Shown: piece after piece, positions 43,970 to 64,000 of the stretch
How positions within the stretch are numbered: the stretch's first letter is position 1
Layout of the letters: every line of letters starts with the position of its first letter
Assembly: GCA_002335605.1 (NCBI GenBank)
Contig: BEDY01000005.1
Span: 558,001 to 622,000 of the forward strand
Length of the DNA stretch: 64,000 bases
Source: Prillingera fragicola
Lineage: Eukaryota; Basidiomycota; Tremellomycetes; Trichosporonales; Trichosporonaceae
Reading direction: 5' to 3'
Translations under genes and position numbers: made by a program
The notes under the pieces: model-generated
Told to the model about the DNA's origin: nothing
Seen by the model: only the letters and a program-made list of their open reading frames with translations
Databases searched by the model: none

Positions 43970-46900
43970 ATGGCTCCTGCTGCTACCGCTTCTGCCTCGA
44001 CCGGCAAGGCCGGCGCTTTCGACGTCGCCACCCTCTTCGTTGCCGACAAGGCTGCCCGCGATGAGGCTCAGGTCAACCTCGCCGCCGCCGTTAAGAAGGA
44101 GGGCGTCGAGTTCCTCGGCCAGATCGGCTGGGCTGACGCCACCATCAAGGCTCTCCAGAGCAAGAAGGACGCCGCCGCTCGCGAGGCCGCTGCCGCTTGC
44201 GTCTCGACCCTCTGCGAGAACGGCGCCGGCATCTACCTCGAGCCCTACATTGTTAGCTCGTCGTCGACCAGCGTCTTCGCTGCTCTTTCCGATGCCATGG
44301 GTGACAAGGAGAAGCCCGTCCGCGAGGCTGCCGTTGCCGCTCTCCAGGCTGTTGCTCAGTCGATGAACCAGTTCGCCGCCTCGGTTGTTGTCCCTGCCCT
44401 CCTCAACACTGTTGAGACCCACGGCAAGTGGCAGGCCAAGGTCGGAGCTCTGGAGGTCATCCAGCAGCTCATTACCTCGTCGCCCGGCACCATGGCTCTT
44501 GCCACCCCTCTTCTCGTCCCCACCCTTGCTGGTGCCGTTCACGACACCAAGTCGGACGTCAAGAAGGCCGCCAAGGCCACTCTTGCCAAGACTGCTTCGC
44601 TCTCGGAGAACCCTGACATTAAGAAGCTCCTCCCCGCTCTCCAGGATGCTCTTATCAACCCCGAGAAGGTCACCCAGTGCCTCCAGCAGCTCAGTGCCAC
44701 CACCTTCGTCTCGGAGGTCACCGCCCCCACTCTGTCGCTCATTGCTCCCCTCCTCACCCGTGGTCTTGACGAGCGTCTTACCGCCACCAAGCGTAAGGTC
44801 GCCGTCGTCTCGGACAACATGTCCAAGCTCGTCGACTCGGAGTACACTGTCCGCCCCTTCCTTCCCCAGCTCCTCCCCCGTCTCATCAAGACTGCGGACA
44901 CCATTGCCGACCCTGAGGCTCGCTCGGTCGCCAACCGCGCCATTGCTACCCTCCGCCGTATCGGCAAGGTCCCCGCCAACTCGGACGGTACCGACCTCCC
45001 TGCTCTTCGCATTGCCGAGGGCCCTGCCGTCGCTGGCGAGCTCGTCGCCTTCATCAAGAAGACCGGCGGCCCCGAGGTCGACGCTGCCAACCCCGCCATT
45101 GCCTACGCTGGTGTTCTCGCCGCGTCGCTCACCAACGCCCACAACTTTGACCAGAACACCTGGGAGGGTGCCGTCCCCCAGTACGTTAAGCTTGCCGTCC
45201 CCTCGTTCGACATTCTCCCCGCCGTCCGCGAGCTTCTCCAGAAGAAGGCCGACGAGGAGTCGACCGACGACATCAAGTTCGACGACGAGGAGGAGGGCGA
45301 GGACCTCTGCAACATTGAGCAGTTCAACCTTGCCTACGGTGCCAAGATTCTTCTCCACCACGCCAACCTCCGTCTCAAGCGTGGCCACCGCTATGGTCTT
45401 CTCGGCCGCAACGGTTCGGGCAAGTCTACCCTCATGAACGCCATTGTCAACAACCAGGTTGAGGGCTTCCCCGACCCCTCGCAGGTTCGTACCTTCTACG
45501 TCCAGCACGACATCGACGGCTCCGAGGAGTCCGTCTCCATCATTGACTGGGTCCTCGCCGACAAGCGTCTCCTTGCCAACGAGGAGGAGATCCGCTCGAC
45601 TCTCGAGTCGGTCGGCTTCGACGAGAAGAAGCAGCAGCACTCCATCGGCTCGCTTTCGGGTGGTTGGAAGATGAAGCTCGCCCTTGCGCGTGCCATTCTC
45701 TTCAAGGCCGACATTCTTCTCCTCGACGAGCCCACCAACCACTTGGATGTTGTCAACGTCACCTGGCTCATCGACTACCTCACCTCGCTCACCCACTGCA
45801 CCTCGATCATGGTCTCGCACGACTCGGACTTCCTTAACCGTACCATCACCGACGTCCTCCACCTCAACAACTTCAAGCTCAAGCGTTACCCCGGTAACCT
45901 TGAGGCCTTTGTTGAGCACGTCCCCGAGGCCCGCTCGTACTTCCAGCTCGACGTTGCTGAGGACTACCAGTTCAAGCTCCCCGCTCCTCCTCTTCTTGAC
46001 GGTGTCAAGACCAAGGAGAAGTCGCTCCTTAAGATGCGTGACGTCTCTTTCCAGTACCCCGGCGCTCCCGTCCAGCAGCTGTACAACATCTCGCTGCAGG
46101 TTTCGCTTTCGTCGCGTGTTGCCGTCCTTGGTCCCAACGGTTCGGGCAAGTCGACTCTTGTCAAGCTCCTTACTGGCGAGACTGAGCCCAACATCGGCGG
46201 TACCGTCTGGAAGCACCCTAACCTTGTCATTGGTTACGTTGCCCAGCACGCCTTCCACCACATCGACCACCACCTTGACTCGACTCCCCTCGAGTACATG
46301 CTCTGGCGTTACCAGACCGGTGAGGACCTCGAGGAGCTCAACAAGGCCTCGCGTGTCATGACCGAGGAGGAGAAGAAGAAGATGGCCGAGGGTGCTACCG
46401 TCGTCAAGGAGGGTGTTAAGCGCATCATCGACGAGCTTGTTGCCCGTAAGAAGCTCAAGCAGTCGTACGAGTACGAGGTCTCGTTCAAGGGCCAGTCGTC
46501 GGCTGAGAACATCTGGATGTCGCGTGACGAGCTTATCTCGCGTGGCTTCGAGAAGAAGATAATGGAGCTCGACACCCGTGAGGCCCAGCGTCTTGGTCTC
46601 ATGCGTCCTCTTGTCCGTCGTGAGATCGAGAAGCACTTCGAGGACTTCGGTCTCGAGGCCGAGTTCGTCTCACACAACACCATGCGTGGTCTCTCTGGTG
46701 GCCAGAAGGTCAAGGTCGTGCTCGGTGCCGCCACTTGGCGCCGCCCCCACATCATCTGTCTCGACGAGCCCACCAACTACCTCGACCGCGAGTCGCTTGC
46801 CGCTCTTATCGCTGCGCTCAAGAACTTCGAGGGTGGTGTTCTTATCATTACCCACAACCAGGAGTTCTCCGAGTCGATCTGCTCTGAGGTCTGGGCTATG

Positions 46901-47143
46901 CGTGACGGTCACCTCGAGGCATCCGGCCACAACTGGGTCGAGGGCCAGGGCTCTGGACCCCGTATCGACAAGGTCGAGGGTGGCATGGACGAGGAGGTCG
47001 AGTACGACGCTCTTGGAAACCCCATCGCCAAGGCGAAGAAGGCCAAGAAGGTCAGCTCGGCTGAGGCCCGTAAGAAGAAGAAGGAGCGCATGGCCCGCCG
47101 CAAGCGCGGAGAGGAGGTCTTCACCGACGAGGATGAGCTTTAA
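43970..47143 (+). CDS. TEF3: translation elongation factor 3 (eEF3)
   Basis: The fungal elongation factor 3, a ribosome-bound ATPase that helps release deacylated tRNA from the E site. The coding region is uninterrupted, with 1057 residues, the usual length. The N-terminal half is a HEAT-repeat domain. The first ABC module has GRNGSGKSTL, LSGGWKMKLALARA and ILLLDEPTNHLD. The second has GPNGSGKSTL, LSGGQKVKVVLGAA and IICLDEPTNYLD, with the chromodomain-like insertion between its Walker A and signature. The C-terminus is Lys-rich (KKAKKVSSAEARKKKKE). Codon use is extremely biased to C-ending codons, which creates a long antisense open frame with no meaning. Confidence 0.98.
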   Translation: MAPAATASASTGKAGAFDVATLFVADKAARDEAQVNLAAAVKKEGVEFLGQIGWADATIKALQSKKDAAAREAAAACVSTLCENGAGIYLEPYIVSSSSTSVFAALSDAMGDKEKPVREAAVAALQAVAQSMNQFAASVVVPALLNTVETHGKWQAKVGALEVIQQLITSSPGTMALATPLLVPTLAGAVHDTKSDVKKAAKATLAKTASLSENPDIKKLLPALQDALINPEKVTQCLQQLSATTFVSEVTAPTLSLIAPLLTRGLDERLTATKRKVAVVSDNMSKLVDSEYTVRPFLPQLLPRLIKTADTIADPEARSVANRAIATLRRIGKVPANSDGTDLPALRIAEGPAVAGELVAFIKKTGGPEVDAANPAIAYAGVLAASLTNAHNFDQNTWEGAVPQYVKLAVPSFDILPAVRELLQKKADEESTDDIKFDDEEEGEDLCNIEQFNLAYGAKILLHHANLRLKRGHRYGLLGRNGSGKSTLMNAIVNNQVEGFPDPSQVRTFYVQHDIDGSEESVSIIDWVLADKRLLANEEEIRSTLESVGFDEKKQQHSIGSLSGGWKMKLALARAILFKADILLLDEPTNHLDVVNVTWLIDYLTSLTHCTSIMVSHDSDFLNRTITDVLHLNNFKLKRYPGNLEAFVEHVPEARSYFQLDVAEDYQFKLPAPPLLDGVKTKEKSLLKMRDVSFQYPGAPVQQLYNISLQVSLSSRVAVLGPNGSGKSTLVKLLTGETEPNIGGTVWKHPNLVIGYVAQHAFHHIDHHLDSTPLEYMLWRYQTGEDLEELNKASRVMTEEEKKKMAEGATVVKEGVKRIIDELVARKKLKQSYEYEVSFKGQSSAENIWMSRDELISRGFEKKIMELDTREAQRLGLMRPLVRREIEKHFEDFGLEAEFVSHNTMRGLSGGQKVKVVLGAATWRRPHIICLDEPTNYLDRESLAALIAALKNFEGGVLIITHNQEFSESICSEVWAMRDGHLEASGHNWVEGQGSGPRIDKVEGGMDEEVEYDALGNPIAKAKKAKKVSSAEARKKKKERMARRKRGEEVFTDEDEL

Positions 47144-47751: not shown

Positions 47752-50397
47752 ATGGCCTCCCCTCGCAGCATTCCACTCGGTTCGAGTGAGACATCATCGG
47801 CTCACGCGAGATCAGTGTCCGCCGCAACGCGGCCCTCTGCAGGTTCCGTGTCCGCACAAGTTGGCACTCCCCAACTGCAGCAAATCCCTTCTCGGGGTGG
47901 TGGAACGTCGTTTCATTCTCGTTCCATTACTGGAGAGCGGCTCCCTTCCCGCACCATCTCGCCCGCTGCCCAGGCGGCATCCCCTGGCGAGGCCTCCGAC
48001 ACTGGTATCGGCAGCAAGACGGCGCTTGAAGCACCCAAGAACACTGCCTCGGCGCTTACCGCCGGCGCCCCGGCACCGACCTTGGGCTCCTCCCCTCAGC
48101 CCGCACTAGAGATCCCTACTCCTGGAGCTACTGGGGAATCGTCTACTCCTCTCCCGGAAGACTCTGCATTCTCTACGCTCGCTGACGTTCCCGATGCGGA
48201 AAAGGCCCGAGTGCTTCGGCGTCACCTTGTCTCTGCAGAGGAACGTGGGTCAAAGAGTAACACTCCGGGTACCGGACAGAGCCCACAAGATACTCCAGGC
48301 AACGCCAGTGTAGCAGGTGATAGCTCGGTCTCGGTGCGTAGCTCGCCGAACCGCCAAGACACGTTTCCCATCCCGTACGATGCTCCCGGTGGCGATGTAA
48401 CGTGAGTCACACCAGACCCTGCTGTCTTCTGACGCTGCAGCCATAACTTGTACAAGTGGCAGCACGACCACCGGCCCAGGCCAAACCGCTCGGCGTCATT
48501 CTCGCATGCAGACCGCTCTGCTATCATTGATCCGGCTATTACTCAAATGAAAGAGCCCAACGGTTTCAGGCGTAATTTCGTGGTTGCTCGCGCGCAGGAA
48601 CGTGGTATTGAAGAACCTCCCATGATTCGCAACTTTGTCGACTTCCTGTATCTCTACGGCCACTTTGTGAGTGCCTTTGTTTACACTGTGCTAACCATTG
48701 TCAGGCCGGTGAAGATCTCGACGAGGACGAGGATCTATCGGACGACGATGACGAAGATGCCCTTGACCAAGAAGCTGCAGAGGAAGGCCGGCCTCGTGCT
48801 TCGTCGAGTCGCCGAGCTTCGCGTGGCTCGCCGCTGGCTTCCGAGCGGACTCCGCTCATGCAACGTTCGGTGAGCCGGGGACGTAAAAAGCGCACCAAGG
48901 CCCCGGGTCAAGGTACAGCCAGCACAACGCAGGCCGTTTTAATGGTTAGTCCCCGTCGATTTTCCTCGCTCACGTCTAGCTACTCAAGGGCTTTGTTGGC
49001 ACCGGTGTGCTCTTTATGGCAAAAGCATTCTTCAACGGAGGTCTCCTGTTTTCAGCGGTTGTTCTTCTCGCTATTGCTGCCATCTCGCTCTGGTCGTTCC
49101 TTCTTCTTGTGCACACGTACATGAAAGTTCCAGGCTCCTTTGGCGGTGAGGCTACCCCTGTCGTCTTCCACGCTAACAACAGACATCGGAGGAGCCTTGT
49201 ATGGCCCATACATGAGGTTGGCCATTCTGGTCTCGATTACCGTGTCGCAGATTGGATTTGTTGCAGGTGCGTGCTCGACCCATGGCGAGTCTTACCATCT
49301 TTAGCCTACACAATCTTCATTGCCGAGAATCTTCAGGCGTTTGTCATGGCTGTCACCGACTGCAAGCACTTCATTCCCACGAGCGTGTTAATTTTCGCTC
49401 AGCTGCTTCTATTCTTGCCTCTTGCCATGATTCGCAACCTCGCGAAGCTGTCTGGTACCGCACTTGTGGCGGATGCGTTCATTCTTGTGGGACGTAAGTG
49501 TCTGTGACGTTAGCTTCACTGACCGTTAGTGGTCTACATTGCCTCCTGCGAAATCGGGGAGCTGGCGACAAAGGGGCTCGCCGATGTCGTCTGGTTCAAC
49601 AAGGATAGCTTCCCGTTGCTTATTGGAACAGCCGTATTTGCTTTTGAGGGAATCGGACTGTGGGTTGTCCAGATTGGACTTGGTAAGCTGATGTCAGTGT
49701 CATTCCCATCACCGAGTCGATGAAGGAGCCGGAAAAGTTTCCCCGTGCTCTGACCGGAGTCATGATCTTTGTCGGCGTGCTATTCGCCAGCTTTGGTATT
49801 CTGGGCTATGCGGCGTACGGCAGCGAGGTCCAGACGGTTGTGCTGGTAAACCTCCCCCAGGATCAAAAGTTTGTTCAGGCTTCGCAGTTTCTCTGTAAGT
49901 CGCCGTGGCCACCTTCCTCCGTGCTCACACTCCAGACTCAATCGCTATTCTCCTTTCCATTCCGCTACAGCTGTTCCCGGCTGTACGCATCATGGAGACG
50001 GGATTGTTTTCGCGCAGTGGTAAACACAACCCCAAAGTCAAGTGGCAAAAGAACATCTTTCGGGCCTGCACCGTACTGTTTTGCTCTCTCTTGTCTTGGG
50101 CAGGCTCGGCCGAGCTCGACAAGTTTGTCTCCCTCGTGGGAGCGTTTGCTTGGTGAGTTTGAACGGGGATGCAACATCTGACGCCAAAGTATCCCACTGT
50201 GCTTCATCTATCCACCGATGCTGCATCTGAAAGGTTGCGCGCAGACCCGCAAGGCAAAGATTCTCGACTGCATCCTCCTCGCATTTGGCATTGTCGTTGG
50301 CGTATACACCACAGTGCAGACTCTGCGTAGCCTGTACTCTTCGGCACCAGCCGAGCCACCCAAGTTTGGAAAGTGTGATGTGCCGAAAGGATATTAG
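47752..50397 (+). CDS. vacuolar amino acid transporter, AVT3/AVT4-like
   Basis: A 768-residue amino acid/auxin permease family protein like yeast Avt3/Avt4, which export amino acids from the vacuole. Ten exons: 47752-48401, 48441-48666, 48705-48944, 48980-49145, 49183-49266, 49305-49493, 49530-49659, 49698-49894, 49936-50152 and 50190-50397. The first 300 or more residues are cytosolic, Ser/Pro-rich, then acidic (DEDEDLSDDDDED). The transport domain starts LLKGFVGTGVLFMAKAFFNGG. Later helices include VSITVSQIGFVAAYTIFIAE, FEGIGLVIPITESMKEP, SIPLQLFPAVRIMETGLF and GAFACIPLCFIYPP. The seventh intron uses a GTGGGT donor, chosen because it alone gives GIGLVIPITES. The homeodomain gene follows. 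Confidence 0.92.
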
Positions 50398-50951
50398 AAC
50401 TAGGAGTGAATGCAACGCTGAGCCCCCGCTTCCTCATAATAATGTGGGGCCTGCAAAGGTCTGGACCGATGAACAGACGTCGCGGTGCAGGCGTGAAGGG
50501 GCTTGCCGCGTTCGACGATGTTAATGAAGAGGGGGAGAGTGACCAGTTACAGAGTCGAGGAAGCACGTGCACAGCACGTGACCTTGACGTTGTGTCGCCA
50601 GTATCGAAGGCTGTTGTCTGTCTTTGGGCCTTTGATGTCGTGCCGTCCTTGCGGACAAAAGGGTATCTGATCCATGCGCGTGCACATCGCTGCTCCATCA
50701 TGATGGTGAATTTGGTTCTTCTCCATCTCCCAGTTCCTACCAGATATCTTTCCTATCCACTTGAACTTTGCGCATTGCGGCAACTCACTCCCCGTCCACG
50801 AACATATCCGCGATGATTGGCACCACTGCAAGTAGTGACTACATCAAATCACATAGCCTAACCGTCGCAGCTTCCTCGTTTTGCTACCGCCAAATCCATC
50901 ACTCCCCCGTCATGGCTAGCAAACCTGTCGTCTACTAAGCAGCGCAGTACT
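50398..50951. promoter_or_regulatory. upstream region of the homeodomain gene
   Basis: About 550 bases between the AVT3-like stop and the homeodomain ATG. It contains two CACGTG boxes close together. I looked for a short pheromone-precursor frame ending in a CAAX-like motif and saw none. Confidence 0.55.
50564..50580. promoter_or_regulatory. paired CACGTG boxes
   Basis: Two CACGTG hexamers at 50564-50569 and 50575-50580 are spaced 11 bases centre to centre, about one helical turn. They lie some 370 bases upstream of the homeodomain gene. CACGTG is the core site of basic helix-loop-helix factors; binding here is inference. Confidence 0.4.
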
Positions 50952-51922
50952 ATGAGGATCGTGCAACAAGAGATTGAATGTGCCCGCTCGCACGCAGTCC
51001 GAAACTTCTGCTTCGAGAGTGAATGTCTCCTCGATGGCGGCAATCATGATGCCCTCGTTGCACTCTCTGCTGCGTTCGATTGCGCTTGGGACAAGCAAAT
51101 TTCAGACTTCTTGGATCAAGTGGCGTGCACAATGACGAAACCCGTAGCTGTCAGACGTGGTCCTAACTTTCACTTGGTATGTTTCCAAGTCACTGTCGCT
51201 GACTGCTTGCAGCGCACGAAGGAAATGCTAGAGGAAGCGTTCGCTCGGTCGCCCTTCCTGAATAAAGCGGAGTGTGCGATGCTTGCCAAGGCCTCTGGCT
51301 TGACGGCTCGCCAGGTAAGTCTGTTCTCGTGCAATGCAACACTGACGCGGTACAGCTTCGCACATGGGTGGGTTGTAACTGTCGAGGCTTGTTAACCCTC
51401 AGTTTCAAAACAAGCGCAGCCGCAACCTTAAGCCGGAGTCGCCTCCAACGACTGAATCACTCGATGCTGACACGCTGTGCGGCCTGCATTCAGCTTCTGT
51501 AACTGGTCGTGAGTTCAGTCTGAAATGGCCATCGACGTCAACCTCTTCTGACATCCGTGCGAAGGTAGCAGTTCACCTCGGCCAGCGCCCATTGATATTG
51601 GCATCATCCGTTAGTACATAACTGCGAACGAGAGCAACTAATTGCCCCAGCCAATATCTCGCTTGGTTTATCGCAGGATGAGCTCGGAACACATTCACTG
51701 TTAGCCGTAGGGCATTGGTTTGAGGAGACACCCGGGCTCGACACCGATTCCCCACCCATGAAGGCATGCGGTCCCGAACAGACGTACTTCACTCCCATGA
51801 GTACCCAGATGATCTCGCCAGATACAGCACAGCTTTCGGTAAGGCTCCTGCTGTGACCAGGCTAACATCGCCAACAGACAGTCATCCCTGACGGTCAAAT
51901 CCCGTGGCGTGGATACGATTGA
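50952..51922 (+). CDS. mating-type-like homeodomain protein, typical (HD2/SXI2-like) class
   Basis: A 250-260 residue homeodomain protein, probably the HD factor of the mating-type locus. Exons are 50952-51176, 51213-51314, 51356-51367 (12 bases), 51403-51609 or 51613, 51677 or 51651-51838, and 51878-51922. About 75 residues precede the homeodomain, as in dimerising HD proteins. The domain reads LEEAFARSPFLNKAECA, then ASGLTARQLRTW and FQNKRSRNLK, with the invariant Trp, Phe, Asn and Arg of helix 3. It aligns without gaps to a 60-residue homeodomain and lacks the three-residue TALE insertion, which argues for HD2 (SXI2 side) rather than HD1. Its 3' end is 113 bases from RPL22. The exon 4/5 junction has two in-frame solutions. 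Confidence 0.8.
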
Positions 51923-52035
51923 AGCTTGGGGATCGCGGAAAAGCCATGGACGACAACGACGTGAAGTCTTTTCAGTGGTGGCTCATTTAAATGCAGAGGT
52001 TCATCATAATGGCTGTCCTGATGGACAGACTACGA

Positions 52036-52643
52036 TTACTCCTCGTCGTCAGCCTCGTCCTGGTCAACCTTGAAGTAGCGCAGCGAGTAGGTGTCCTTCG
52101 AGGTGGCAACGACACTTGCAACTCATCAGCACTCATTGAGGACTTTCCCAGCGTTGTACTTACCGGAGGAAGTTCTCGAAAGAGTTCTTCTTGAGGTGCT
52201 TCTTCGTGAGGTACTGTTGTCCGTTAGCGGAGCTTCTAGATTCAGTGAGCGCGGCATACCTTGAGGTAACGCTTGGAGAAGGGGATCTGCGAAGTGAGGA
52301 CGAGCTTGTTGCCTGTGACATTGTCAGCTCACTATACAAGCCATGAAGTAAAAAATGCCACTCACCCTCCTTGCTGAGCTGGATCGAGTCACCAAGCTGA
52401 CCGGGCTTGCCGTCAACCTTAATGCGGTCGTGAAGGAACTTCTCGAACGCAGCAGGGTCGAACACGTTGTCGTTGGCAGGGACCGAGTAGTCAACGTAGA
52501 ACTTGTGCAGGGCCTTGCCCGCAGTCTTGGAGGTGGAAGTGGCCTTAGGCTACAGCGTCAGCAATGTAAGCTCGCGCCATTCAAAGTCAGGCAAGCGGCA
52601 GGAGCCACACCCATATAAGTGCTAGAGGAAGCGGACATACCAT
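52036..52643 (-). CDS. RPL22: 60S ribosomal protein L22 (eL22)
   Basis: eL22, 122 residues. Exons are 52641-52643, 52366-52549, 52260-52312, 52164-52213 and 52036-52114. The first coding exon contains only the ATG, separated by a 91-base intron from CCT AAG GCC, a pattern seen in several ribosomal protein genes. The protein reads KFYVDYSVPANDNVFDPAAF, EKFLHDRIKVDGKPGQLGD, IPFSKRYLKYLTKKHLKKN, NFLRVVATSKDTYSLRYFKV and ends in an acidic tail, matching the family throughout. RPL22 is a known member of the Cryptococcus MAT locus, so its adjacency to the homeodomain gene is informative. Confidence 0.96.
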
Positions 52644-53198
52644 GTCTACAGGTGATTCTGCAAAACGTTTTGGGTGGAATGGAGGACTCTGGATTTCATT
52701 AACAGCGAAAAAGATAGAGGGTCGATTTGGCGGAGATATTCGGTGTTTTAGCCGTGGCACCTGCTCTCCCATTAGAATCCGTTGCATGGCAACTTGATGG
52801 CTTAATCGCTCAACCATAACACGCGGCTAACCTTGTCTGCTCCTGCTTTACGCCGTCTGGTGTGCTCTTCTCATAGGGCTGTTGGATACCTTGACAAGAA
52901 AGGAAAACTTTTTAGAAAGTGGGACGAGGTATTGAGCGGCATGGGATCGGATAATACAAGAATTCGACGCTGCATACTGAGGCCCAACAGTGAAACTGAC
53001 TATTCTCGTGGGCAACCTTCAAAACAACCCTGAGATTTCGCAGCATTAGCAGTTCACGGTGTCGCTTGTCTACGAGGCGATGGTTTTGCTTAAAAATCAC
53101 ATCATATTCGCATACCACCTGCTGCTGTGACCCCGGCCCCTTGTCCCGTCTCCGCCTGCAATAGGAGCGAGTTTGCTATTAACACAGTGCTATGCATC
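52644..53198. other. RPL22 promoter and ferric reductase 3' region
   Basis: About 555 bases upstream of RPL22 and downstream of the ferric reductase, both on the minus strand. No gene or repeat is recognised. Confidence 0.6.
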
Positions 53199-55367
53199 CT
53201 ATGCACCAAGGGTTTCCTCATAATAGTCTACGCTTGGCTCCCCACAAAGTAATCCACGTATGGAGCTACTGGTGCAAACAGCACGCCTCGCAGCCAATAG
53301 CAAGGAATGCGGGCCACATACTGCCATCAACATTTGCTCTGTGCGCACGTCATGCCTCACCTGTCACGTTCATCCGTTCCGTCGTCAAAGCCATGTCATC
53401 GCGTACAATTCTTGCCAGGTCTGCCCTTCCAGCATGCCAAGAAATCATTTCACGAGCAGCTGCTGAAAGGTGAATGGCAGAACTCAGCAACGGCTGCTCA
53501 TCCGTTTCAAGGTCCACCGCGTCACCTTGGGCCTGGTGGGACTGATCGAGTGTCATGTCGCTCTCAGACAGGACCGGTCTGGTGACGTACAAGTCCACCG
53601 AAACACTGAGGCCGGTATCCCGTGCGTTCTCCACGACATCATTGAGTAAGGGTGCTACCCACTCTACGTGACACTCATGCCGAATATGCCACACCAGACG
53701 AACACGGCGAGTTTCAATCTCGTCACGAGCGCCATTGGCCAGTGCCATTAGGTGAGACAGGCAAAATGTGATGCCGGTTCCACCTGGATATCAGCCGACT
53801 GAGGAATACCCGGAGCTCACCTGCTAAAAGGACCACTGTTGGGTAAGTTTCCAAGGTGTGGACTGATCCATATGGGCCTTCCACATATATAGGGATACTT
53901 GTGGTTTCATGGCTCGGGAGCGCATCTCGGAGCAGCTTGGTAGCCCCAGAGTGCACGCGCACCAGAAAGACAGCCGCGTTGTCGGTGCCAACGGGGACGT
54001 TGGCAAAGGAGAATGGATGTGATTCGTGCCGGCTTTGGGTTATGGAAGGCATGGAAAGGAAGCTGAAGGTCAATCAACATGGCAGCAAATTGACGTACGC
54101 GTGTTGTCCCGCCGACCACCTGAGGCCCTTGCGACGAATAGTGAGGCGCAAGACATTCCGATCGACAAGTTCAATGATGCAGCGGTTCTCCGCGGATGAC
54201 TTGCTGACAAGCTTCGAAGGGGTCCAATTGGTGAAGATCACCCGCGACAGTCGGATCACGCGGTCGATAACCCACAATATCAGTGAGGGCTGTTCGTCAA
54301 CATTGCCGTCATACAACACACTGACCCATATCCAGTACATCAGCTTTTTCCAGTGGAATAATGCGCCAACAAGAAATAAACTGCTGATTAGCCATCCCAA
54401 ATTCTGGCGCTCATTGCGCAGATTAGCTTACAGAGTGAAGACAATGTGGGAAACAATGAAGAACTCCCATGCCACTCGTCGAATGACACGGAAACTTGTT
54501 GTCCACAGCATAGTGAACCCAAACAATGCCAACAGTCCCTGATGGGTATTAGTGCCAAAGGAGATCGACAACAGCAGCCTACCCAGATGATATAGCCCCT
54601 TGAAAAGTGTCCTTTGGCCCAAACCTTGGGCGTCCACAATATCGCGTGGGCCCAACTGCTCAGCAAGCAAAGCCTAGAAGCGGCACGGTGCAGGAAGTTG
54701 AGTTTTTGGTACGTGATTCCAGTAAGGAGGGAGATCGGGTTGTTCTTTGTAATCAACAAAATAATGAGCGGCATCTGACTGAATGCCTGACGCACTGTTA
54801 GCACCAACATGAAAAATCTTGGCTCACCAAGACGCCGATCTGATTTGGAAGATTTTGGTCTCCGCCGCACACTGAGGTATCAGCGCTATTCCCGTCGCGA
54901 GTGCTCATCATGTACTCACAGGTCGTCTTGTTCACTGAATAGAAGGACAGCAAGGCACAGTAGGCAATGGTGCAGAAGGCGTCCGACATTGTATCTGGAG
55001 CGTACAACCAAGGAGGCAAGGTAGTGAGAACTAGTGCTTTCTGCTTGACTGTGTCGACGACAGCAGCAGATTTTGAAAGCATGGATGCTGCTGCAGGGGC
55101 ATGGCTATCTCTCTGCGGCCTAAGACGGCCAAGGCGTTGCCGCCTGCTTCGACGTCGAATAGATGCGCACGCATGGTAGAAAGCCAGGAGTAGGATGACC
55201 ACCAGAGTGATGACGCAAAGATACCGGCTTGCGTACCAGTGATATCGAGTAGGACGAGGAGGCCTGGGGCTTTCCGGTGAGGGTGTATCATGGGGGCTGA
55301 GAGAAACCCCCAACGCAGCATCCCCTAGGTGGTCAAGAATCTCAAGTCTGACCTGGGCGACGTCCAT
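53199..55367 (-). CDS. ferric-chelate reductase (FRE family)
   Basis: A 623-residue plasma-membrane metalloreductase passing electrons from NADPH through FAD and two haems to extracellular Fe(III) or Cu(II). Eight exons: 54920-55367, 54828-54871, 54583-54786, 54432-54538, 54099-54380, 53821-54062, 53361-53783 and 53199-53320. Haem ligands appear as His pairs 14 residues apart in FLHRAASRLCLLSSWAHAI and in SHIVFTLLFLVGALFHW. The FAD-binding motif is HPFSFANVP, the nucleotide-binding glycines are LLAGGTGITF, and the C-terminal motif is VCGPHSLL. The exon 5 acceptor is a tandem CAGCAG; the second AG is preferred because it keeps the haem spacing. It is divergent from the methyltransferase. Confidence 0.92.
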
Positions 55368-55676
55368 GTCATGAGACGCTGAAATGTGTGACGGAGAAGA
55401 GGACGTGTTGGGAGTGAAATCCTAATCCCACTGGGCAGGGTCAACGTGGGCAAGCTGCGGCCCTGCTGAGACCATGCGATGTTCTCCCAGTATTCTTGTG
55501 GACAATGAATCGGTTCGGGTCTCGCCGCTCCACTACTCCATTCACCCAACGCGTCGGCCGATTATCAGATAACCAAATATCGCCGGTCCCGGTAATATCT
55601 TTGTGGCATCTTGCAATCTCTTGGCATCTTCCATATCGTCCTGTGCACGAAAAGTTTGAGGGCAACAACACGATTC
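55368..55676. promoter_or_regulatory. shared promoter region of ferric reductase and methyltransferase
   Basis: About 310 bases between two divergent ATGs. Nothing beyond ordinary intergenic sequence is recognised; I did not identify a GATA-type iron-regulator site with confidence. Confidence 0.5.
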
Positions 55677-56378
55677 ATGCCGGCCGACTATTCCTCTCAG
55701 GCTTACTGGGAAGCCAGGCTAGCTAAAGAGCAGCAGGGAGGATTTGAGTGGCTCGTTCCGTCATCATCTGTGCTACCTTTGGTGGACTCGATAGTGGAGG
55801 AACTGAGTCTGAAAACCTTGCGGAAGCAAGCAATTGGCATTCTGCACTTCGGATGTGGTTCATCTTCTCTTGGGTGGGATGTTCAGCACTTCCTGGGGAG
55901 TAGGGCAACAGTCACAGATGCCGACTATGCCAGCAATGGCATAACCTCGACGCCGTCGGATGGTTCGCCTTCACCACACACCGCCGTGCCTCTCGTTCAG
56001 CTCGACGTTCTGTCCACGGAGTCCCTCCGTGACGCTGCCCCAGTAGAGGGTTGGGATCTATTGATCGACAAGTCTACAGCTGACGCTATCTCGTGTGGCG
56101 AACCGCGATTCAGCAGCTCCGACCAGTCCATTAGCTCTGAGCCAATCGATCTCTTGTGCAGCAACCTGGCAAGCGTTACACGGGCTGGTGGGATGTGGAT
56201 CAGCATATCATACTCGTCGAGCCGATTCGACTTCATATCTGAGCTTAACCAACAGCAAGAATGGCGACTGATCCGTCGCCTCCCCGTTAAGCTCAATGAC
56301 AGCTTTGTCCCTGGCTCTGGCTCGGCAGTCTACAAACCAGAAACAGGTGTTTGGGCTTGGGTACTGGAGAGGCTGTAG
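55677..56378 (+). CDS. small SAM-dependent methyltransferase (EEF1AKMT4/See1-type candidate)
   Basis: A 233-residue, intronless class I methyltransferase. The start MPADYSSQAYWEARLAKEQQ with FEWL resembles the YW...R...FEW opening of lysine methyltransferases that modify elongation factor 1A. The SAM-binding glycine motif is ILHFGCGSSSLGWDV. An acidic motif follows at VTDADYAS, then WDLLIDKSTADAISCG (motif with the catalytic-pocket Asp/Lys) and the C-terminal strands GGMWISISYSSSRFDF and VWAWVLERL. The frame extends upstream only to a TTG, so the first ATG at 55677 is used. The exact substrate is inference from the N-terminal pattern. Confidence 0.85.
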   Translation: MPADYSSQAYWEARLAKEQQGGFEWLVPSSSVLPLVDSIVEELSLKTLRKQAIGILHFGCGSSSLGWDVQHFLGSRATVTDADYASNGITSTPSDGSPSPHTAVPLVQLDVLSTESLRDAAPVEGWDLLIDKSTADAISCGEPRFSSSDQSISSEPIDLLCSNLASVTRAGGMWISISYSSSRFDFISELNQQQEWRLIRRLPVKLNDSFVPGSGSAVYKPETGVWAWVLERL

Positions 56379-56440
56379 AGCAAATGATCTACCATGCATA
56401 GTGTTCGATCAAGCTCCAATGCGGTAAAACGTTCCAAAGA

Positions 56441-58880
56441 TCACAGCAACCCTCCAACAAACAGCGTCAGCAAGGATTTGTTGTGGAGACCGAGGGCAAG
56501 CTGCTGCCCGTCATTTCTCCAAGCCATTGACATCTCAAAGTTAGCAAACCTTTCAACCAAAACGCTTACCATCATCGGCTTATCCCGCGCATTTTGCTTG
56601 TCCGGCTCCTCGTCAATTTCGCATTCCCGCAAGACTTCCCCTGTCTAACGTTGTCAGCAGGCATAGCGAGGATGAGCTAAACCCCACCTGCACATCCCAA
56701 ATGACGAGCTTTCCATCCCAGCCACCTCCCGCCACAAGCCCAGACTTGCGGCCAAAACCGATGGGCGAGAATGCAATAGAGCCAGTGCCAGATTCCAGTC
56801 CGGGTAAAACGTGCAAGCACTCGCCGCTCAAGGCATCGAAGAGCTTGACTGTAGAATCTTGACCGCCACTGTACGGGGTCAGCATTCGCTTGAGGCTCAT
56901 CAACGTACGCTGCTACAATCATTTGGCCATCGTGGCAAGCTGGACTCCACTCGAGCGTGTTCATCCGCTTGTTTTCCATTCCTGCACTGACGACTGCAAG
57001 ACGATTGACGCAGTACTCTGAACCCGGAGCCACAGTCGACTGGAAAAAGTCGTCGGAGGAGAGCTCCTTTTCGCGTGGCTGCTTGCTAGGCGACAAGGAC
57101 CGGCTGACCGTACCACGGTCGGCTGGGTACTGTGGGAGCTTCCATACCATAATATTACCATCGTCGGAAACGGAGGCGAGCAACCGGTGGTGAGTGGGAA
57201 CACCAGGTATTGATGGAGACCACTTAACACGAGTCACGTCGTCCGTGTGGCCTTTAAGAGTAAACCTCGGTCGTCGATCATTGGCTCGGTAAATGAAGAT
57301 TGTGTGATCGTTTCCTCCGGAAGCGAAGACGTCGTCGTCGAGCCAGTCGACGTCATTGACTTCTTTGGTGTGAGACTCGAAGCTGAGCTGCTTCGGAGAC
57401 TTGAGATCAAAGTCAAGGACGAAGAGGCAAACAGTGAAATCGTCCTTGGCAGCCAGGAGAGATGTACCGGACGGATTGAACTTCAGGGAGTTGATGGCAC
57501 CACGGCCATACGTCAAGATCCCCTGCAACTGGCCTGAAGGCGTGAAAAGCCGACCGACTCCATCAGAGGCAGCTGGAAGTCAGCCTTGAGCGTGGTCATT
57601 CCATTCTCACCCGTAGCGAATACCGTTCCATCTGGGTGCCATACCAAGGCAGTAACCGCCTTCTTACCGCTGTCAATCGATTTGTGACTAATCGTAGACG
57701 GCTTTTTCCCAAGTTGCAGCACGTTTCCTTCGTCCTCAGAAGATTCCACAAAGTCCCACAATTTGGCGGTCCCATCGCTGCTCCCAGTGACCAAAACTTC
57801 CTTGTCCTTGGGGTTCCACGCAAGGCAAGTAACCTGTGCCACGTTAGGCTGGGTTCCACATCGGGTCTCACCGTATCACGGTGCTCAATCCAGCTTCCGC
57901 TCCCAGTCGCACCCGAAGAAAAGCCCTTGACAGCCTTGCTTTTGGATCCAGCCGACAATCCTTGCGCGCGAGCACTACTTGATTTGGACCTGGAGGCCGA
58001 AGATTCTTTAGGAGTCTCATCCCTAGAGCGCTTCTGGGCAGGCCCCAGGTCAAGTGCCGCTGGGCCCGATGATGATATAGCTCGGTCCAAATCGTCGCGA
58101 CCTGCTCCAACTGCTGGCATGCCGTCCCCTTCCTGATCTGCTGCGAGAGTTGACCTGGCATTCGACGCAGGCGAGTCGGGATGACTCTTTCGTTTGGTTC
58201 TGCCACTGACTGTGGGAGACCCAGCCTCTACCTCCCGATGGATGGAGCGGCGCTCGCTCTCGTTCGAGCTGCCCTTGAACGGCGGTGCGACTTCTGTTTG
58301 GGGCGGAAAGGGCTCTGGTCGTTTTGAAGGGGGAGTTGATGTGATACCATTGCCTGTAGCACCGTCGTTGGAACAGGTGTGCGGCACAATCAGATGAAAT
58401 GGCGAGCTACACGTCGACGGCGAGGTTTCCTGCACACAAGTTAGCGTAGGCCGGCATAGCATGATGCATGTACGTTGCCTGTAGCGTGCCTCTCAATGTC
58501 CTCCCAACGCAGAGCCTTCCACAATTTGCGAATCAACTCGCCTCGAGGAACTTTTCCATTTGAAGACCCAAAAGCCTCTGCCATAGAGGCTTTAAGCGCC
58601 CCGTTGGTGCGCGCCGAGGCTGGGGGAGCTCTTGACGAGGATGGTGTGGGGTATGAAGGGTTAAAGGCTTGAAACAGCGGTGTTGATGGCAGCGCGGACT
58701 CGGAGAGCAGAGCAAAGGCAGTGTGCGTAAAGTTGGATTCCAAGAGATACTGGCATAACATAAATAATTGCACCGCGAGGGATAGGACAGACATACGAGG
58801 TAGATGAGAATGTTGACTTCCTCACTGCAGAGCTTGAGGTGACCGGCTCCGTGGTCGTCTCCGGAGATGTCAACTTGCAT
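56441..58880 (-). CDS. LisH/WD40 protein, TBL1/Sif2-like corepressor subunit
   Basis: A 729-residue (or 717) protein with an N-terminal LisH motif and WD40 propeller, like TBL1/Sif2, a scaffold of the Set3/SMRT histone deacetylase complex. Exons are 58797-58880, 58474-58749, 57872-58429, 57611-57833, 56909-57572, 56688-56868 and 56441-56644. LisH: EEVNILIYLYLLESNFTHTA. A long basic/Ser-rich linker follows. WD repeats include VTCLAWNPKDKEVLVTGSSD, INSLKFNPSGTSLLAA, VNDVDWLDDDVFASGGND, VTRVKWSPS with LLASVSDDGNIMVWKL, and GGWDGKLVIWDVQ. The last exon may contain a further 36-base in-frame intron (56534-56569). The gene is divergent from TMEM115. Confidence 0.88.
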
Positions 58881-59343
58881 CGTGGCTGCAAAAGCACAGG
58901 ATCTCCCAAGTGCTGCTGAGATTGGATATCAGGTGGATGCGCTTAAATGGAATGGATGGCAGCGAGGAAGTAGTGTGACAATTGCCGCGTTGTAGCATGG
59001 GTGGCGAAACACAGCCAGACCAAAGAACACAGAGTCAAGCAAGTGCCACAGGGCCTAATGCCGGCCTAATTACCGCTACTGCATTGGGCTCGCGACGCGG
59101 TAACCAGTGCGGCCAGTGCACAGTTGCCACTGAGAAACGTCAGCGGGCCTACGGAGGCAGAAGGCTCGGGGTTTGAAAAGGTGCCTACCAGCAGGCCTGA
59201 CGCTAGTGTCCAGACTGCCGTGTGCCCACGTACGTCTATGGGCGAGAGTTAGCGAACACTTGTTGGTGTTGCACAGCTCATTCGAGATCACTTTGTCTCG
59301 AGCTTCACAGTTTCAGCAAGACGCTCAGCAAGTCATCACCGTC
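58881..59343. promoter_or_regulatory. shared upstream region of TBL1/Sif2-like and TMEM115-like genes
   Basis: About 460 bases between divergent starts. The plus-strand frame is open from 59173 but has no upstream ATG that improves the match, so this part is read as leader. Nothing else is recognised. Confidence 0.5.
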
Positions 59344-60583
59344 ATGCCGTCCATATCGTTTTTGCCCTTTCTTCAAACTGTACCATGGGGAACGCGGATT
59401 CTTACATCGGTGCTCGTTGCAGCGTCAGTCCTCCAGTATTCCCTCGGCGCCATCGTCCGGAAACAAGCGACTGTCGCGCCAGCGTATGGCCAGGAGCTCC
59501 CTTGGCTAGTCATGGTCCCGAAGACTAGCTGGATGTTTCCTTGGACTCTTTTGACAGCCGGCTTCGTGGAGTTGAACTTTGTAGAGGTATGCACACAGAC
59601 GCCTTTCCACGCTGACACCTTTCAGCTACTTCTGTCGGCAGTCACTGTGCCATTGGCATGTCGATACCTTGAGCGACTTTGGGGTCTTCGCGAAACTCTG
59701 CGCTTTGCTGCTATTGTCATTGTGGGATCAAACGTGATTGCCTTTGGCTTCTCTTGGCTGTGCTTTATCGTCTTGGGCTCCAAGATTGCAATGTAAGCCC
59801 TTGACTGCATTGCTCACTGACGCGTCTCAGCAGCGGTATCCCATACCATGGCCTCTCTGGCTTGCAGTCAGGACTGCTTGTTGCTTTTACTCAGATTATT
59901 CCAGAGCATCAGATCCAGCTCTTTGGCGTCATCAAAGCGCGCGTAAAGGTCAGTTCTCCTAGGCGACCTGTGCTGAACTCCGACTAGACCGTGCCCGGCC
60001 TATACCTTCTGTTGTCCAACGTACTCGTCATCGTGCTGGGGCCCTCACCATTCATTCTGGTCCAGTTTGGTTTCTTCGTGGCTTGGATCTACTTGCGATT
60101 CTTCAAGCTCTCCGAGAGTGGAGAATATCGAGGCGACCGCAGCGAGACTTTCGCCTTCCAGTACTGGTTCCCGCCTATTGTTCGGTAAGTGGACTGGCAT
60201 GAAAAGGTTGCAGAGGCTGATCCGGTCCCGTCAGTCCGTACATTGCGATGGTAGCCAACCATGTCTTCCGCCTGGCTGTCCGGACCGGTGTGATCCAATC
60301 CTGGGATGACACTCATGGCAGCTACGCGGTTCTGCCAGGCCCAGGTGGTGCCCGTGCCGAAGCGGAGCGACGGAGGTAAGTGTGTTGGACTCGCAGCACC
60401 CCCTGGTCCGAAGCTAATTTTTCTTGCAGGGCTGTTGCACTTAAGGCTCTGGATGCCCGCCTCGCCTCGTCCTCGTCATCAACAGTGCCTCCCCCTGTGC
60501 CCCCTGTCAACGACTCGGACAATGCTTCTTCTTCGCGAGCTGGGCCGGGCTCCTCAGAACCTCTCAGCACGTCTACATCGTGA
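59344..60583 (+). CDS. TMEM115-like Golgi rhomboid-fold membrane protein
   Basis: A 339-residue protein of the TMEM115 (DUF1751) family, rhomboid-like Golgi membrane proteins without the protease residues. Exons are 59344-59586, 59626-59792, 59831-59948, 59988-60184, 60235-60375 and 60430-60583. Segments typical of the family are TSWMFPWTLLTAGFVELNFVE, here split by the first intron, RYLERLWGLRETLRF, IPYHGLSGLQSGLLVAFTQ and LSESGEYRGDRSETFAFQYWFP. The C-terminal tail is Ser/Pro-rich. The acceptor of exon 3 is CAGCAG; either AG keeps frame and changes one Ser. Start is the first ATG after the long leader. Confidence 0.86.
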
Positions 60584-60691
60584 GCTCTCGGGCTACATCT
60601 GCAGGGTGATACCGACCACTGCTATGAAATAGAGTTTGGCTTCTGTAGTCTCGGATCATTGTTCTGCATACAGAGATGGATGGTGACACAA

Positions 60692-62931
60692 CTAGCAAGA
60701 GTCGATGAGGCTATTTTTCTGTTGATGGAGGTCAGTCTGCGTCCCGCGCTCGAGGTCCCAGATACTCACAGGCCAACCGTAGCCCGCGGCGTCCCAGGTG
60801 GTCAGGTTGGGGTTCTGGTACGCCTTGAGGTGGTTCTTAATGTAGTCCGCTGTAGGGTGGTCGGCGGGGTCACATCCAATCTTGCCTCCTTCGCGCTGGT
60901 AGACCCTGACATAGTCAACCAGCATGTGGTTAGGGAAGACCAGATGTTGCAAGTCAACAGCCTGGAAATTGTTTGACATGCCAAAGTTGATGATCTTGGC
61001 AGGTCAGCATGGCCTCCGACGCGTTGCGCTCACCATTGTCATCGGCTCCTCGGTAATCAGACGCTGGCCAATTTCGGTCCTATCGTTCTTTCCCGTTGCT
61101 CCGGGGTACATGGTCCACGATGGCTCACCGCCAGAGACCCACGTAATGTGACCAGCGTTTCGATCGTTGGGGTCCGCCCAGACTTCAACGCCTGACCATT
61201 AGCTGTGCTGAAATTGCCGCCCAAGGGAAACATACCATAGATGTTGAAATGCCCCGAAGTGCCCTGGTAGACATCGTTGGCCACGTACACGAGGCCGGAG
61301 ACGGCTTGCTGGTACACGCCGCCAAGATAAGAGTTCCACTTCATCACGTCCGCCTGGTGAATCACATAGTTTCCACTCGAGTTGTCCCACTGGTAGTAGT
61401 CGTCAAAAGGAGCAACTTGAGCCGACTGAGACATCTCTCCCTTCTGGGCGTTGACGTCGATCTGGGCCTAACACAGTTAATATACAGCCATGGCAACACC
61501 TGAGCGCGGCACTGACCTCAATAATGTCAATCTCTGGAGCAGAACGTCCAACCCCCGTGTTTGGTCCTGGGTGGTCTTCCCCTGCACAGGTGCATTTGGA
61601 CAATTTCTGGCCGGGAAGGCTGATAAGGCTTAGCAGGGTCTTTCATTCAGGTCATGACTCACGATGATAGAGGGCCATCATTAGCTCCAGTGGTCAGGGC
61701 TGCGATGGGAAGAGTGCCAGCAGCGTTGGTTTGGCCCTTCAGCGTTCCAACATCGCAAGAGTCGTAGGTGTACGGCCATGTTCCTTCCGTGCTTGCTCCA
61801 TAACCAGGGCGACCGAGGTTGCCCATGGTCCACACGCCCGGCCAGAAGCCACCAACACTGTTGTCTCCTGGGAGTGAAACGCGCACCTCGATGTAATAGC
61901 TGTACTGGAAACAAAGCTTGTTCCAAGACTGGAGCATACCCGACTGGAACATGAGATCGTGCGTCGGCTCTTGCGTCATGGTGATCTTGAGGTTACCATT
62001 CTCAGTGGTAATGGCCCTTGGGTCGTACCACTCAAGATCACTGGCAGCATTAGCAAGCGCCACGTGGGGGGGGTTAACAGTACACACCCGGTTGGCCAAT
62101 AGTGGAAGTCACTAGTGCGTTGTCAGCAGTTGTGCAATGGGGTACGCCGATAAACTCACACCGCTGTCCAGTAAGGGTCGTCGCCCTCGTAGAAAGTCCT
62201 GCCATCCTTTTGGAACTCGTCCGAAAAGACAAGAGTGTACTCTGCCTTATCGAACCCGATTCGAATGGTGTTCTTGACATCGTCGGGTGTGTCAGGGTCG
62301 ATAAGCTGAGGGAAGCCTGGAATTGAAGGAACCTGGCCGGTCGAGTTGATGCCACCAATGTTGTAAGCACCGTTGGTCGTGAGTCGCTTCTCGGTAATTG
62401 CAGTGATAATGGGGTATCCAGCGAACAAGGTAATCAGGATAAGAAGCAAGAGAAACAGGCATCCAACGTTGGCAAAGCCTCGAATAGTGAAGATAGATCC
62501 TCCACGATCATTCTGCAATGTCAGCAGTTGCAAAGCACAGTCAATTTACCTTGTGATCACGCTTGGGGTCTGGGTTGTGAAGATAGTCATCTGCCTCAGG
62601 GTCGTTCCATCCCCAACCATCGCCAGGTCCAGCACTGGCAGGCCGAGTGCTGTAGCTTGACCTCGAGCCTGCATGACTCAATCCACTCAGACGCGAGCCG
62701 GCATGGCTGGCCCTTGACCCAGGTCCCGAAAACGATGCTGAAGGGGTACCCAGCAATGAGGCTGTGGATGGGACTGGGGTTGCTGAGGCGGTGGGGCCAT
62801 AACGCCTGGAGGATGGCTGCCAGGTCAGTCGCGAAAAAACAGCCAGACCCAGTGGACCAACTCACCTTAGCATAGTCTATCGTGGGACTACCAGGTGAAA
62901 GAAGAGCGCGCTGGTCTCCCGTCTTCGACAT
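60692..62931 (-). CDS. beta-1,6-glucan synthesis protein, KRE6/SKN1 family
   Basis: A 610-residue type II membrane protein of the SKN1/KRE6 family (GH16-like), required for beta-1,6-glucan in the cell wall. Ten exons: 62866-62931, 62550-62816, 62160-62512, 62088-62111 (24 bases), 61663-62040, 61517-61619, 61236-61467, 61034-61191, 60770-60994 and 60692-60718. The cytosolic N-terminus is Ser/Gly-rich with a [17 protein letters not shown] segment ([17 protein letters not shown]). One helix follows ([21 protein letters not shown]). The lumenal domain has [60 protein letters not shown] and the GH16 catalytic box [10 protein letters not shown]. It ends [11 protein letters not shown]. Confidence 0.94.
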
Positions 62932-64000
62932 GTTGCGCAAGTTCAATACACACCGCCTAGTCAATGGTCGGTTTGTTTGTCGCGTAAGGTGAAGGGGCTG
63001 TAGCCGCCGCGTTGATTGCACAGAATGGCACCGCTCTCACTCAAAGAGATTGGGCTAGTGTTGCAGGAAAGGAGGAGCTGGTCGTGTTCTACTTGTAGGG
63101 AGCGAAAGAGAATGAAGGAATAATTCAATGGCGAGCCGAGTGAGAGAACAGACAACCAAACGCTACAGAGGAGGAAAACGAGGGAGGGCGGTGCACTGAC
63201 CGGGACCAGTGTTGACTGAGTGAGGGTTCAAGGGGCGCACCACTGTCAGGGGCGCGTGCGGAAACTCGGTGAGGCAACGGGAGGATGTCCCTTTGACGGT
63301 TTGATCCCGCCGGGCGACCAGTGGCCACCGCGCCACTCTACAAGGCGCACTGCACTACTACTGTTGCATTCACCGAGCTGCTGGCCAGCTGCTGGGAGCA
63401 AGCGCACTGTTGGCCGCTGCGGCGCTGCCAAAGAGACATAGAAAGATCACCAAAACTAGTTGGCAAACCAGTGGGAGCCGAGTTCCCAATAATGCTAAGC
63501 AGCTGTAAGCTGTCACCTTCTTGGATGATGTTGCATAGTTTCCAGTTATACGGCTCTTGATCAACAGCTATTGCCTTGAGGCCTTGAGTTTGACTATGGC
63601 AACACTCCGCACAGAACCCTGGCTCCGGCCGCAAGTCTCCGGCTCTCCCTGCAAATCTGCATAACGGCACCACAGGCCACAAGCTACAAGCTACAAGCAA
63701 GTGCCTAGTTCCTGGCCGCCTGGGATGTATTCTTGCCCCACGCCTACAATCTGGTATCAAACAACAGAGCACGCGTGCGACTCGGTGAGTTTTACATTAC
63801 CTGTGCCCTCTTTGTGATACAGCTGTTCCACTGGCCAGCGCGCCAGCGCACTGGTAAGTAGCTACTGTAGGGATATGCTGACCTTCATGCCGATCAAGCC
63901 ACAAGATCGACGCGTGGTCAATGACACGCTCCTGCCTACCTGCATGTGTTCAGCTCGTAGTTAGCATGCAGCATGTAGTATGTAAGGGGAATTTTATCTG
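62932..64000. other. upstream region of the KRE6/SKN1 gene to the window end
   Basis: About 1.07 kb. It should contain the KRE6/SKN1 promoter and leader. Open frames up to 144 codons (63338-63772, minus) show no domain. No RNA gene or repeat is recognised. Confidence 0.55.

Follow-up and report, generated by a model that had tools for sequence, protein, structure and literature searches.

A homeodomain gene lying beside the ribosomal protein gene RPL22 raises the question whether the two mark a mating-type locus and, if so, of which type. A preliminary description of this DNA had taken the pair for the HD half of a mating-type locus, with the MAT locus of Cryptococcus as the model. The window, i.e. 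the whole stretch of 64,000 nucleotides that was analysed, corresponds to C5:558001-622000 in a genome of 20.25 Mb assembled in 17 contigs; coordinates given with a contig name refer to the contigs, those without refer to the window.

The homeodomain gene (50952-51922, forward strand) is represented by a spliced model of seven predicted exons (50952-51176, 51213-51314, 51356-51367, 51403-51508, 51586-51609, 51651-51838 and 51878-51922) encoding 233 amino acids. All six introns are of the GT-AG type and 35-77 bases long, and the spliced frame is open. The Pfam Homeodomain model matched residues 77-120 of the protein (E=1.2e-10, 41.5 bits against a cut-off of 22.9), and helix 3 reads WFQNKRSR, in agreement with the WFQN-RxR core reported in the preliminary description. 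Both the sequence and the spliced model place a 35-base intron (51368-51402, forward strand) between the W and the F of the helix-3 motif WFQNKR, therefore the motif is absent from every unspliced frame. The exon pattern was predicted without transcripts, and outside the homeodomain it should be read as a prediction: the automatic gene finder recovered just the 3' part of the gene, a scored model search from the start at 50952 put other splice patterns on top, and the model used here was picked for its whole homeodomain and short introns.

RPL22 (ribosomal protein eL22; 52036-52643, reverse strand) encodes 122 amino acids in five exons, the first of which consists of the ATG codon alone. It matched Pfam Ribosomal_L22e with E=4.2e-43 and is the sole match to this family in the 20.25-Mb genome (one match, three candidates scored). 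Positions 50952 and 52643 are the start codons of the homeodomain gene and RPL22, and by both gene models the convergent stop codons are separated by 113 bases (51923-52035), as stated for the tail-to-tail arrangement described before. Rfam and tRNA scans of the window yielded 0 and 0 matches. To the left of the homeodomain gene lies an amino-acid transporter gene (47752-50397, forward strand; gene model, Aa_trans 9.9e-12, one exon), whose stop codon is 554 bases from the homeodomain start codon. Two genes left of the homeodomain gene there is a single-exon elongation factor 3 gene (43970-47143, forward strand) with EF3 HEAT and ABC domains. A gene at 3869-6919 on the reverse strand codes for a long repeat protein rich in Ser, Pro and Thr, which has a signal-like start; the gene contains several tandem arrays with periods of 12-150 bases and is interrupted by an 841-base run of N (3996-4836).

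Two classes of homeodomain proteins have to be distinguished at mating-type loci. According to the S2 Fig legend of PMC6730849, HD1 homeodomains of Tremellomycetes contain a three-residue insertion that is missing from HD2, and the insertion is stated likewise for HD1 of Agaricus (PMC8305134). The homeodomain encoded in the window showed zero length difference from the Pfam Homeodomain model and aligned 46 to 46 residues with yeast MATa1, its best yeast match in PDB (E 2.1e-6), whereas it was three residues short (57 to 60) of the TALE protein PBX1. The best PDB matches of the protein were human DUX4 homeodomains. As the HD1 insertion is missing, the protein is, judged by the length of its homeodomain, HD2-like, i.e. 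of the SXI2 type.

STE3, STE20 and a pheromone gene, for which a search had been proposed in the preliminary description, all lie on the contig of the homeodomain gene itself, the last of them as a frame ending in a CAAX box. Proceeding rightward from the homeodomain gene, the order is RPL22, five predicted genes, ATG7, MYO2, a kinase gene in the place of IKS1, STE11, a gene for a C2/MUN protein and STE20, followed by STE3, REI1, DBP10, the pheromone gene, UBP6 and STE12. The five genes between RPL22 and ATG7 (gene models, 53564-62931, corresponding to C5:611564-620931) were scanned with Pfam on one exon or frame each: the pieces of two gave no match, and those of the following three matched WD40, DUF1751 and SKN1/KRE6. 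MYO2 was recognized by its myosin head, IQ and DIL domains (myosin V), STE11 by SAM, Ras-binding and kinase domains, and STE20 by PH, PBD and kinase domains. In the automatic prediction, the C2 protein and STE20 had been fused into one gene, as had STE11 and the end of the kinase; both fusions were split by domain. Pfam scans covered part of the predicted genes, mostly one exon or piece each. Since the 161-aa piece from the start of the kinase at the IKS1 position had no Pfam match, the name IKS1 rests on place; an NCBIfam search for UBP6 returned 0 matches.

Three exon matches to STE3 belong to one gene at C5:645.6-646.5 kb, the only STE3 found in the genome, and its ATG is 37.6 kb from that of the homeodomain gene. 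The pheromone-like frame (C5:651647-651766; 39 aa, MDAFTAVFS...CVVA) lies 42.8 kb from the homeodomain gene and 5.2 kb from STE3. It stayed below the cut-off of Pfam Mfa1 (E=0.029, 14.7 bits against 25), and with its CAAX end it has the form of a farnesylated pheromone precursor, to which we assign it putatively. We take its MDAFTAVFS start to resemble that of Cryptococcus pheromones. The start pattern has two occurrences in the genome, and a reversed control matched once; the occurrence on C8 was rejected as a second pheromone gene, as it falls inside a frame of at least 809 residues. STE12 is situated 33.7 kb beyond the pheromone gene.

Base composition was compared in 2-kb windows over 263 kb (C5:498001-761000), with the block length set to the HD-to-pheromone interval (22 windows). 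The lowest-GC block of this length was C5:608001-652000, with a GC content of 0.538 against 0.575 in the 109 other windows, which represent 219 kb of C5 flanking the core. One of 131 circular shifts was as low, and that one was the true place. Within the precision of the 2-kb grid, the block starts 1 kb before the homeodomain start codon and stops just past the pheromone gene; its left 14 kb are in the window (50001-64000), and the trough extends past the right edge of the window as far as the pheromone gene. Third codon positions had a GC content of 0.615 in 14 predicted genes inside the block and of 0.663 in 35 outside (p=0.003). Lower GC has been reported for the MAT core of Trichosporonales (PMC6730849), and GC depletion has been explained by reduced biased gene conversion under suppressed recombination (PMC12510652). 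We infer that recombination is reduced in this core.

To classify the receptor, a hand-mended splice model of STE3 was used, which contains the first three long exons, its last letter being read in frame past the end of the exon; the gene probably has one more exon at the C-terminal end. For STE3, one search returned three proteins and a profile search 18, each among ~8000 scored candidates. The tree had 14 rows, namely the genome's own STE3 and 13 of the 19 proteins P0001-P0019; P0010, P0011, P0012, P0014, P0016 and P0019, which were partial or fused, were left out. The STE3 of the genome formed a group (99/96) with VHUM_00825 of Vanrija humicola and a metagenome protein, and Filobasidium floriforme FFLO_06159 joined this group further out (90/89). 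FFLO_06159 is the STE3 of strain CBS6242, which was placed in the alpha group, and TXT13458.1 is the STE3-alpha of V. humicola (both as given in PMC9210288). Because the V. humicola genome that this research group deposited is that of the A1 strain CBS4282, VHUM_00825 was taken to be the STE3-alpha of CBS4282. By its nesting in this tree, which is composed of receptors other than STE3a, the STE3 on the contig of the window would belong to the alpha class. Alpha receptors are reported to be recognizable by a conserved proline (S3 Fig legend of PMC6730849); the N-terminus of this STE3 has prolines, and the outgroups carry prolines there as well. The nearest relative found for the receptor was P0001, a metagenome STE3 about 50% identical to it, encoded on a 33.9-kb contig that may hold a related mating-type locus.

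In PMC6730849, an HD2 gene together with STE3-alpha on one contig defines the allele called A1 in Trichosporonales. In that study, 24 species of the order were analysed and found to have fused loci with one HD gene per mating type. The A1 allele is described there as fused, with HD2 and STE3-alpha, a single HD gene and a low-GC core; RPL22, MYO2, IKS1, STE11, STE20 and STE12 are listed as linked genes, STE12 being nearby in most species. Takashimella tepidaria was also assigned to A1, and Takashimella is reported to differ from the other genera in the gene content between HD and P/R.

The question whether the locus contains a second HD gene was approached in several ways. Genome-wide, there were six Homeodomain matches at five places, the one in the window included, and two Homeobox_KN matches, none of which was HD1-like. 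The remaining places (C1:430 kb, C1:1316 kb, C4:166 kb and C5:669 kb) were read as other homeodomain proteins. A scan for the helix-3 motif over 604-662 kb revealed no real second motif, and it also misses the known intron-split gene. Mating_N, the HD1 N-terminal family, had 0 matches in the genome and 0 in the controls too, so that this search carries no weight. The 554 bases upstream of the homeodomain gene leave too little space for a divergent partner HD gene. It is thus likely, though not proved, that the locus contains a single HD gene; a spliced HD1 could be missed. The homeodomain gene at C5:668425-670104 (reverse strand) is located on the contig of the locus, 18 kb beyond the pheromone gene. 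It is probably not a second mating HD gene, as it lies outside the GC trough and its helix 3 reads YFRQRRNK. Homothallism was considered as well and is unsupported because one STE3 and one candidate mating HD gene were found, with the same reservation concerning a spliced HD1; heterothallism is presumed.

Taken together, the homeodomain gene is, with high probability, the HD end of a single fused MAT locus with the published A1 combination of Trichosporonales: HD2 (SXI2-like), STE3-alpha and one pheromone precursor. By its gene content and the STE3 tree, the genome is that of a basidiomycete yeast probably belonging to Trichosporonales or closely related to them. This reading of the locus is built on direct observations, namely the gene content, the linkage, the HD class, the grouping of STE3 and the GC trough. 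The earlier interpretation as an HD mating-type region is supported by STE3, the CAAX frame, MYO2, STE11, STE20 and STE12 on the same contig and by the position of the gene at the edge of the trough. It was right in assigning the gene to a mating-type HD region; the separate half, as in tetrapolar species, has to be replaced by the end of a fused locus.

It could be argued that the gene encodes an ordinary, non-mating transcription factor sitting beside RPL22 at the edge of the locus, and that the true HD gene is elsewhere or has been lost. A search with the protein found no homologue among 319 candidates at E<=1, and the genome has further homeodomain genes, both of which would be compatible with such an explanation. 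Mating HD proteins, however, usually diverge fast (PMC8305134), the other homeodomain genes are all outside the GC trough, and the gene in the window is on the edge of a trough that it has in common with STE3 and the pheromone gene. Moreover, RPL22 is HD-linked in Tremellales (PMC2873909, PMC12510652). We consider a non-mating factor very improbable. A fused MAT of the Cryptococcus neoformans type, in which SXI2 would be combined with STE3a or SXI1 with STE3-alpha, has even less to recommend it. A fused locus with RPL22, MYO2, STE11, STE20 and STE12 is common to the C. neoformans MAT (PMC6730849) and to the locus described here, but the receptor groups with that of V. humicola (99/96), and the CAP1-like and SPO14-like genes, whose C. 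neoformans counterparts are part of MAT, lie on a different contig (see below). Compared with the model chosen in the preliminary description, the locus fits the Trichosporonales A1 allele better than that of C. neoformans.

If the locus is an A1 allele, its biology would follow what is on record for Trichosporonales. Unlike cells would find each other and fuse by means of STE3 and the lipid-modified pheromone, the signal being relayed by kinases, STE20 and STE11 among them. Once the cells have fused, the HD2 protein would pair, presumably as a dimer, with HD1 (SXI1) contributed by the opposite mating type, and the HD1/HD2 pair would turn on sexual development. With one HD gene per allele, the active pair could form only after mating, and the linkage of HD and P/R genes would lead to their joint inheritance as two mating types, i.e. 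to a bipolar system. RPL22 would be a housekeeping neighbour kept beside the HD gene.

In Cryptococcus heveanensis and Tremella mesenterica, RPL22 is linked to HD, and in Cryptococcus and Kwoniella it ranks as an HD-associated gene (PMC2873909, PMC12510652), therefore its place in the window is better read as inherited than as coincidence. In Tremellales, CAP1 and SPO14 are HD-linked in addition to RPL22 (same sources). At C2:845720-854884, away from the MAT contig, a Glyco_transf_90 gene adjoins a gene with two phospholipase D motifs. This pair is probably CAP1-like and SPO14-like, although 9 Glyco_transf_90 and 7 PLDc matches occur in the genome. UAP1, an HD flank gene in Cryptococcus, was not found near the C2 pair, the UDPGP matches being on C6 and C1. 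Since the CAP1-like/SPO14-like pair is on another contig, SXI2 and RPL22 may have been relocated jointly. Eight of nine Kwoniella P/R genes are on the C5 part, which would place the seam of the two former loci within the 11.6 kb that separate RPL22 from ATG7. In Kwoniella fici, the HD-associated genes described in the vicinity of P/R are limited to SXI1, SXI2 and RPL22 (PMC12510652), and by analogy SXI and RPL22, together there too, may be a repeatedly moved unit. SPO14 and CAP1 are absent from the main text of PMC6730849. We tentatively propose that both ends of a fusion event have been kept in this genome: a short segment with the HD gene(s) and RPL22 would have moved into the P/R region, leaving a seam between RPL22 and ATG7 and a CAP1-like/SPO14-like remnant elsewhere. 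This is a possible scenario rather than a probable one.

The instance described here is new or possibly already published. That the genome was analysed before, for instance as that of Takashimella tepidaria JCM11965, and the locus is already in print is somewhat unlikely, and would bear on novelty and not on biology; the A1 assignment of T. tepidaria, the deviating gene content of its genus and a core that falls short of the ~55 kb given for the order were counted on the side of earlier publication, and on the other side, our literature search found no description that could be tied to the genome analysed. What had been an isolated guess is now a mapped mating-type locus with both ends. The locus offers targets for strain typing, and a compatible partner is predicted to carry SXI1 with STE3a. 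The compact core, the matching GC trough and the separate CAP1-like/SPO14-like pair should be useful in addressing how HD and P/R loci fuse and why RPL22 is retained.

Comparison with known systems places the locus as follows. A tetrapolar HD locus, with divergent HD1 and HD2 genes unlinked to STE3, does not match, since there is a transporter gene 554 bases upstream, RPL22 downstream and STE3 linked on one contig. Of the nine genes that the P/R loci of tetrapolar Kwoniella species have in common (PMC12510652), eight lie on the C5 part, namely MF, STE3, STE20, STE12, DBP10, REI1, ATG7 and the C2 protein gene; in contrast, NDC80 is on contig C1 here, and the Kwoniella SXI1/SXI2 pair is unlinked to P/R. 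Bipolar Kwoniella fici (PMC12510652) is similar in having few HD-associated genes, SXI and RPL22, near the P/R cluster, but it keeps both SXI1 and SXI2, whereas one HD gene was found here. The MAT locus of C. neoformans/gattii is likewise fused, with one HD gene per allele, as is probable here, and with RPL22, MYO2, STE11, STE12 and STE20. It differs in containing CAP1 and SPO14, the likely counterparts of which are on C2 in this genome, and in C. neoformans HD2 goes with STE3a, the opposite pairing, in a locus more than 100 kb long (PMC6730849). The resemblance is closest to the A1 allele of Trichosporonales, e.g. that of V. humicola CBS4282 (PMC6730849), with HD linked to P/R on one contig, a probably single HD gene, HD2 combined with a putative STE3-alpha, one pheromone gene near STE3, linked RPL22, MYO2, STE11 and STE20, STE12 nearby and a core of lower GC. 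The difference is in size: the core measures 37.6 kb from HD to STE3 and 42.8 kb from HD to the pheromone gene, whereas ~55 kb is given for the order and ~50 kb for CBS4282.
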